Assembly (NCBI GenBank): GCA_038889235.1
Contig: JAWAHN010000003.1
Location: forward strand, 257,673 to 321,672
Source of the DNA: Candidatus Jordarchaeales archaeon
GTDB taxonomy: Archaea > Asgardarchaeota > Jordiarchaeia > Jordiarchaeales > Freyrarchaeaceae
Reading direction: 5' to 3'
Length of the DNA: 64,000 bases
In this document: in pieces, positions 33,992-36,215 of the stretch
Layout: each line of letters begins with the position of its first letter
Numbering within the stretch: the stretch's first letter is position 1
Notes under the pieces: generated by a model
What the model was told of the DNA's origin: nothing
Database searches by the model: none
Seen by the model: the letters and a program-made list of their open reading frames with translations, nothing else
Made by a program: the position numbers and the translations under genes

Positions 33992-34627
33992 TTGAGGGGT
34001 GTGAGGGTCATCAGGGTCACCCGGGAGAACATTGCTGACGTGGCGAGGGAGGCTGCTGAGGTAATACTTGGAGGGGGGGTTGTTGCTTACCCTACGGACA
34101 CACTTTACGGCCTCGGAGTAAACCCGTTCGTCAGAGAGTGCGTTGATAAACTTTTGCAAGTAAAGCGGAGGCCCGTGGAAAAGGGCATCCCGCTGCTCGT
34201 CGGAAGCTTAGAGGACGCTGAAAGACTGGTTTATTTCACCCCGGAGGCGCGGATCCTAGCTAAAACGTTCTGGCCTGGCCCCTTAACCATCGTGCTCGTC
34301 CAGCGTGCATATTTGCCGGACGAGATTTCGGGGGGTAGGGGGATCGTTGGTGTAAGGTTACCCGACCACCCCCTTCCCCAGCAGATTGCCAAGATAACTG
34401 GTGGAGCTATAACGGGAACTAGCGCGAACATTTCTGGGCGTGAGCCTGCGAGAACCGCGAGGGAAGTGGTTGAGCAGTTAGGGGACGGAGTGGACCTGGT
34501 GCTTGATGGCGGTGAGACCGGTGGAACTCCGTCCACAGTTATAGACTTGACGCAAAAACCGCCAGTCATAATTAGAGAGGGGGTCATTCCCAGGGAAAAG
34601 ATATTCAGAGTTCTCGGCTTTACCTAG
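33992..34627 (+). CDS. sua5: L-threonylcarbamoyladenylate synthase (Sua5/YrdC)
   Basis: 211 residues, the YrdC domain without the extra Sua5 C-terminal domain. Makes threonylcarbamoyl-AMP from threonine, bicarbonate and ATP, the first step of t6A at position 37 of ANN-decoding tRNAs. Typical segments are VVAYPTDTLYGLGVNPF, the KRRPVEKGIPLLV loop, FWPGPLTIVL, GVRLPDHPLPQQIAKITGG, TGTSANISG, and STVIDLTQKPPVIIREG. Starts at TTG 33992; a GTG at 34001 is also possible. It faces the Cgi121 gene, which acts in the next step, with 15 nt between the stops. Confidence 0.92.
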   Translation: MRGVRVIRVTRENIADVAREAAEVILGGGVVAYPTDTLYGLGVNPFVRECVDKLLQVKRRPVEKGIPLLVGSLEDAERLVYFTPEARILAKTFWPGPLTIVLVQRAYLPDEISGGRGIVGVRLPDHPLPQQIAKITGGAITGTSANISGREPARTAREVVEQLGDGVDLVLDGGETGGTPSTVIDLTQKPPVIIREGVIPREKIFRVLGFT

Positions 34628-34642
34628 CTGGCCCCTTCGATG

Positions 34643-35203
34643 TTAGGATTCCAGTGTTAGGAGCGCGCCTCTTTCTATGCAGCATTTAACAAGTGCTTCG
34701 AACTCGTCTCTAGCTTGCACGGATTCCAGCTCAACGCTTTCTATGCCGAAAGCCTTCTTTATTCGCTCAGCCTTTTCGCCGTCAAGCTCGAGGACGCCGT
34801 CGTCTTCCAGTGCGCCGAGCGCTTCAATAACGTAGCGGGCTGCCTCCTCAACCCTGCCCCCCTTCGCGCCGACAGCCACGAGGCCGAGCCTCTCGCACCC
34901 TTCCTTCACCCCGAACATTTCGAGGGCCACATTTATCTGCCTTTGCCCCGAAAGCCTGACCAGGATTTCCATTCCGAGACTTCGGGCTATGCGCCTTCCG
35001 GCATCACTAGCCTTGACCGCGTTCAGCGTGCTGAAAAAGACGTGTTCCCACGTAGCGACAAGCGACGCGTCGAAGATCTGCACGACAACCCCGAACTTCG
35101 CTTCGGCCTCCCGGGTGAGATGCAAGGCTTCTTCGATGCCGACAAGACCCCTTAAACCGCATATGCATGCGACGCGGTCACCGTTCAGCTCGACAACCTT
35201 CAC
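34643..35203 (-). CDS. cgi121: KEOPS complex subunit Cgi121
   Basis: 186 residues from GTG 35203, behind GGGGGGTTAT. The Cgi121 features are VVQIFDASLVATWEHVFFSTLNAVKASDAGRRIARSLGMEILVRLSGQRQINVALEMFGV, where the SGQRQI segment touches tRNA. Cgi121 recruits tRNA to KEOPS (Kae1, Bud32, Pcc1), which moves the threonylcarbamoyl group from threonylcarbamoyl-AMP to A37. The Sua5 enzyme that makes that intermediate is encoded convergently next door. It overlaps the phosphoribosyltransferase gene upstream by 26 nt. No other KEOPS gene is in the window. Confidence 0.9.
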   Translation of the reverse strand: MKVVELNGDRVACICGLRGLVGIEEALHLTREAEAKFGVVVQIFDASLVATWEHVFFSTLNAVKASDAGRRIARSLGMEILVRLSGQRQINVALEMFGVKEGCERLGLVAVGAKGGRVEEAARYVIEALGALEDDGVLELDGEKAERIKKAFGIESVELESVQARDEFEALVKCCIERGALLTLES

Positions 35204-35807: not shown

Positions 35808-35883
35808 ACGCAAACCCCCAATCCACGAAGAGACAACAAGCCATGAAGAATTCAGGGAAGGGAGTATGGTGGGCGGGCCAGGA

Positions 35884-35912
35884 GTCACACGCGCACACAC
35901 GTGCATGCGCGC
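35884..35912 (-). other. tRNA-Pro intron C (T-loop, position 59/60)
   Basis: The T-stem CCGGG/CCTGG is the outer helix, AAG and ACT are the 3-nt bulges and CGCGCA/TGCGCG the inner helix. Cutting after the second base of each bulge leaves TTCAAAT. The four-pair central helix TTCA/TGTG has one mismatch and one wobble. Confidence 0.75.
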
Positions 35913-35946
35913 TTTGAACCCGGGGCCTCCGGCTCCCGAAGCCGGT

Positions 35947-35976
35947 TGCATGCGGTGAACCTTCATCGTTCACCGA
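35947..35976 (-). other. tRNA-Pro intron B (between D-stem and anticodon stem)
   Basis: Inner helix CGGTGAAC/GTTCACCG of 8 pairs, central helix TATG/CATG (one wobble), bulges ACT and CAA, outer helix GG/CC. This is a full bulge-helix-bulge. Cleavage leaves a single A (position 26) between D-stem and anticodon stem. Confidence 0.8.
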
Positions 35977-35987
35977 GTCATACCATG

Positions 35988-36008
35988 TTCCCCGCTTCAT
36001 CCGAAGCT
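35988..36008 (-). other. tRNA-Pro intron A (D-loop)
   Basis: Inner hairpin GCTTC/GAAGC closed by GGAT. The bulge-helix-bulge is weak (central GTCT/GGGG with one mismatch), so the ends may be off by a few bases. Some removal is needed for a normal D-loop with G18-G19. Confidence 0.5.
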
Positions 36009-36040
36009 CTAGACTACCCGCCCTTTTCCTAGAGATAGCA

Positions 36041-36050: not shown

Positions 36051-36215
36051 CTTAATTAAATTTTCCCTCTAAAATGGGAAGGATTAAGTGACTCCAGCTA
36101 GCTTTTGCAACCCGAACACGGCGGCATCCAGCTGGTGGGGACACCTTTAACTTCGGGCAAGCATTTAATAATTAAGTGCCCGCGGTTTCGACTAGTGTGA
36201 AACGGATACATCAGT

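Follow-up and report, generated by a model that had tools for sequence, protein, structure and literature searches.

The locus considered here raises the question of whether a proline tRNA gene broken at three places can still yield an ordinary tRNA, by what machinery the interruptions would be removed, and how old they are. It lies in a window of 64,000 nucleotides (the whole stretch of DNA that was analysed) on contig C3 of genome G000, and neighbouring genes together with genome kinship identify the host as a member of the Asgard genus Candidatus Jordarchaeum, class Jordarchaeia, a name treated as a later one for Freyarchaeia (PMC11291895). An S-adenosylmethionine synthetase encoded near the locus is 89% identical to a protein of Candidatus Jordarchaeum sp. 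JNZ_1113. The same neighbours and kinship rule out the hyperthermophilic TACK origin that a preliminary description of this DNA had implied. The gene, a tRNA-Pro(CGG), runs on the minus strand from 36023 to 35867 (157 nt), a strand that the description had not given, and its parts are as follows.

35867..36023, minus strand: whole tRNA-Pro(CGG) gene, 157 nt, with the encoded CCA at 35869..35867; full-length homologues occur in three congeneric genomes.
36009..36023, minus strand: exon 1 (tRNA positions 1-15); the first 25 nt after splicing match the continuous tRNA-Pro(CGG) of locus L132 exactly.
35988..36008, minus strand: intron 1, 21 nt, in the D-loop at position 15/16, with a relaxed HBh' motif; an intron at the same place is found in tRNA-Pro genes of other families (L113, L114, L125, L130).
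35977..35987, minus strand: exon 2 (positions 16-25), from the splicing model and the genus alignment.
35947..35976, minus strand: intron 2, 30 nt, at position 25/26, with a complete bulge-helix-bulge (BHB) whose central pairing survives changes in relatives.
35913..35946, minus strand: exon 3 (positions 26-59), with anticodon CGG at 35938..35936.
35884..35912, minus strand: intron 3, 29 nt, in the T-loop at position 59/60, with a BHB; the relatives that lack it (L113, L114, L129) read TTCAAATCC here.
35867..35883, minus strand: exon 4 (positions 60-76, with CCA), from the splicing model and the genus alignment.
36053..36060, minus strand: likely TATA box TTTAATTA, located 30 nt upstream of where the mature tRNA starts, with a putative promoter function.

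Two genes of the t6A tRNA-modification pathway lie close by, Sua5/YrdC (33992-34627, plus strand) and CGI-121 of KEOPS (34643-35203, minus strand).

Removal of 21, 30 and 29 nt leaves a 77-nt tRNA, GGGCGGGTAGTCTAGCATGGTATGACACCGGCTTCGGGAGCCGGAGGCCCCGGGTTCAAATCCTGGCCCGCCCACCA, which forms a cloverleaf with anticodon CGG, a normal T-loop TTCAAAT and an acceptor with encoded CCA. Its D-stem has three standard pairs and U13-U22. The preliminary description had read the locus as a tRNA-Pro(CGG) with introns of these lengths, one of them in the T-loop, and a 77-nt product with CCA, and all of this is confirmed from the sequence. As a pattern in the letters, the arrangement is far beyond chance. The locus is almost certainly functional and appears to be the sole tRNA-Pro(CGG) gene of the genome. 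Transcription would yield a 157-nt precursor, in which an alpha-beta EndA would cleave the BHB sites at 15/16, 25/26 and 59/60, and RtcB would ligate the four exons, so that an ordinary 77-nt tRNA results that reads CCG codons. Both the cutting by the host's own EndA and the order of intron removal are inferred.

Pairing at the three intron ends was judged by the presence of two 3-nt bulges flanking a 4-bp helix, or of the relaxed HBh' or hBH form. Intron 2 has a complete BHB, with 4/4 central pairs, a 3-bp outer helix and an 8-bp inner helix; the 3' pairing strand of the intron reads CATG, CGTA or CATA according to species, and each pairs with the exon sequence TATG. For intron 3, the T-stem serves as the outer helix (5 bp), the central helix contains one U.U mismatch, and the inner helix is 9 bp long in three of the four genus genomes, while in G001 it extends for 3 bp before meeting a mismatch. 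Intron 1 shows the relaxed HBh' form, with a 5-bp inner helix. BHB folds had previously been noted at two of the three introns; the folds are present, but the count was too low, as all three introns have one in some form. When the introns were shuffled, the observed pairing of central plus inner helix was matched in 131 (intron 1), 3 (intron 2) and 30 (intron 3) of 200,000 trials each, rates that are to be multiplied by a handful since the registers were picked among a few options. For intron 1, the alternative registers 14/15 and 16/17 gave poorer pairing by hand, and 14/15 also loses the conserved purine 15.

The absence of an outer helix in intron 1 and its central pairing of only 3/4 lend some weight to another reading, in which the tRNA gene is real and the mature tRNA retains one of the inserts as an enlarged loop; the D-loop segment, which has the relaxed motif, would be an example. 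Relaxed HBh' motifs are, however, known splice sites (PMC6379350, PMC4090602), and the D-loop obtained after splicing, AGCATGGTA, is normal and identical to the continuous sequence of L132. Contact between the D-loop and the T-loop is an established part of tRNA structure, and 29 extra nucleotides in the T-loop would disrupt it. Retention of an insert is thus considered very unlikely. With splicing at all three sites as the preferred reading, the missing outer helix of intron 1 and the central mismatch of intron 3 mean that cleavage there would require a tolerant enzyme.

Comparison within the genus bears on whether the gene is functional. Full-length homologues with the same three introns were found in all three other genus genomes (G001-G003), at 157-158 nt and 86-91% identity. 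Across the four genomes, 1 of 77 exon columns varies against 35 of 83 intron columns (P = 3e-11), and the flanks vary in 22/44 and 35/41 columns. The sole exon difference is A59 to G in one genome, at a position that is itself variable in tRNAs. This pattern of substitution marks the exons as being under purifying selection. The TATA-like TTTAATTA is invariant in 4/4 genomes, in an upstream flank much of which is variable. The gene was reported neither by ARAGORN nor by an Rfam scan at gathering score, as expected from its three introns. That standard tRNA finders miss it could also be taken to favour a tRNA pseudogene in decay, or a sequence that resembles a tRNA by chance and is split by insertions. 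Against this stand the exons, which are the same in four species bar variable position 59, the inserts, which vary yet stay paired, the conserved TATA-like element, and the lack of any other tRNA-Pro(CGG) found in the genome; a pseudogene or chance origin is scarcely credible.

An intact second tRNA-Pro(CGG) elsewhere, named in the preliminary description as evidence that would count against its reading, was searched for in the host genome (G000) and not found; the genomes compared are drafts split over many contigs, and G000 is about 95% complete, so a copy could be missed. The best candidate, at G000:C6:391-465, proved to be a tRNA-Arg(CCG). The contig that carries it (C6, 5,713 bp; L001, L102) is short and holds this tRNA-Arg intact despite the intron-rich tRNA set of the genome, and it may be foreign DNA included in the assembly. 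No transposed copies of the three introns elsewhere in the genome were among the BLASTN matches at E<=1, and a search of a plasmid collection gave zero matches.

Other tRNA genes of the genus are interrupted as well. The tRNA-Pro(UGG) gene at G000:C1:741603-741749 (L144) has three introns and orthologues in G001-G003. Its intron positions in the genus are 15/16, 25/26 and, as the best fit, 58/59, so that the first two are common to both proline genes and the T-loop intron differs from the 59/60 of tRNA-Pro(CGG). In Rfam alignments, most of the tRNAs detectable in G000 contain insertions, for example one in the T-loop of a tRNA-Gly (L008). In the same kind of alignment, tRNA-Ala(CGC) (L010 1501-1644) has apparent insertions in the D-loop, anticodon loop and variable loop.

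Relatives that lack some of the introns provide both a check on the predicted joints and a view of intron age. The predicted joints of tRNA-Pro(CGG) occur as continuous sequence in intron-lacking relatives (L129, L132, L113 and L114). The tRNA-Pro of L129, from another family of the phylum, has none of the three introns, and its joints read TCTAGATTGGTATGATACCTGG and TTCAAATCCC. In L132 the 5' part, GGGCGGGTAGTCTAGCATGGTATGA, is continuous and equals the spliced form over 25 nt; inserts interrupt the variable region and the T-loop of this gene. A single intron is present in the tRNA-Pro genes of L113 and L114, where it occupies the D-loop site of intron 1, and the tRNA-Pro(UGG) genes of L125 and L130 (the other family of the same order) combine the D-loop intron with an insert close to the variable loop. 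Because introns at the same place occur in tRNA-Pro of other Asgard families, the D-loop intron probably predates the genus. Inserts in the T-loop are also seen in other tRNA-Pro genes (L125, L132). The introns of tRNA-Pro(CGG) at 25/26 and 59/60 were seen only within the genus, and by this distribution they look like later additions than the D-loop intron.

The machinery for removing such introns is encoded in G000, which has an RtcB gene and a pair of genes for EndA-family proteins, 205 and 195 aa long. One EndA resembles the crenarchaeal alpha, or catalytic, subunit (3p1z, E 4e-47) and by alignment keeps the Tyr, His and Lys of the catalytic region; the second is a beta-like subunit that by alignment lacks the catalytic His. 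Such separate catalytic and structural subunits are a feature of the (alpha-beta)2 type of EndA. The crenarchaea-specific loop and its lysine are reported to confer broad substrate range on EndA (PMC6379350). In the G000 alpha subunit, GFYGQPLGIRKPK aligns to GYYGQPLDVEKPR of Aeropyrum pernix, with its lysine in the Lys44 column. It had been proposed that the locus requires a splicing endonuclease of broad specificity. With alpha and beta subunits encoded and the loop lysine present in alpha, a broad substrate range of the G000 enzyme is plausible, a judgement based on a single loop and the lysine it contains.

The loop lysine is present in 13/13 Asgard EndA alpha subunits extracted by script (L138 and the Asgard alpha-subunit loci among L162-L185), and EndA was found in 39/39 related genomes, with two genes in most. 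Within a partial coverage of the literature, no paper on this loop in Asgard archaea was found. A tentative extension, put at somewhat less than even chances, is that loop and lysine are general in Asgard archaea, so that a splicing endonuclease of broad specificity may be older than the separation of TACK and Asgard lineages, and that tRNA-Pro may have inherited its D-loop intron vertically from far back in Asgard history as opposed to gaining it by a recent insertion.

Soil Freyarchaeia have been reported to carry a heavy load of tRNA introns, and these data indicate that the genus Jordarchaeum shares it. The D-loop intron common to Asgard families and the two genus-only introns of tRNA-Pro(CGG) provide a clean case of relative intron ages, and the introns are tied to an endonuclease with a loop thought to permit broad cutting. 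Multi-intron tRNAs are missed by standard finders, and therefore tRNA counts used for genome completeness would be too low in such lineages.

Among known systems, Freyarchaeia and Atabeyarchaeia have introns in 92-95% of their tRNA genes, several in over half, often at non-canonical positions (PMC11291895); these multi-intron genes are of the same class as the Jordarchaeum gene and come from a different genus. That three introns in one tRNA are uncommon, as stated earlier for this locus, holds for archaea at large, but the Freyarchaeia/Jordarchaeia lineage is an exception (PMC11291895). Archaeal tRNAs with three introns are on record for Thermoproteales, and 59/60 is among the listed intron positions (PMC4090602, PMC4390854). 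The tRNA-Pro(UGG) of Pyrobaculum islandicum (Thermoproteales) is, like the Jordarchaeum gene, a proline tRNA with three BHB introns, one of them at 25/26 (PMC4090602, PMC4390854). Its other two introns are at 56/57 and the canonical anticodon-loop position, whereas the Jordarchaeum tRNA-Pro(CGG) has them at 15/16 and 59/60 and lacks an intron at the canonical position. The Jordarchaeum tRNA-Pro(CGG) is thus a well-supported new example of a three-intron type that is rare in most archaea and has already been reported as the rule in its Asgard lineage.
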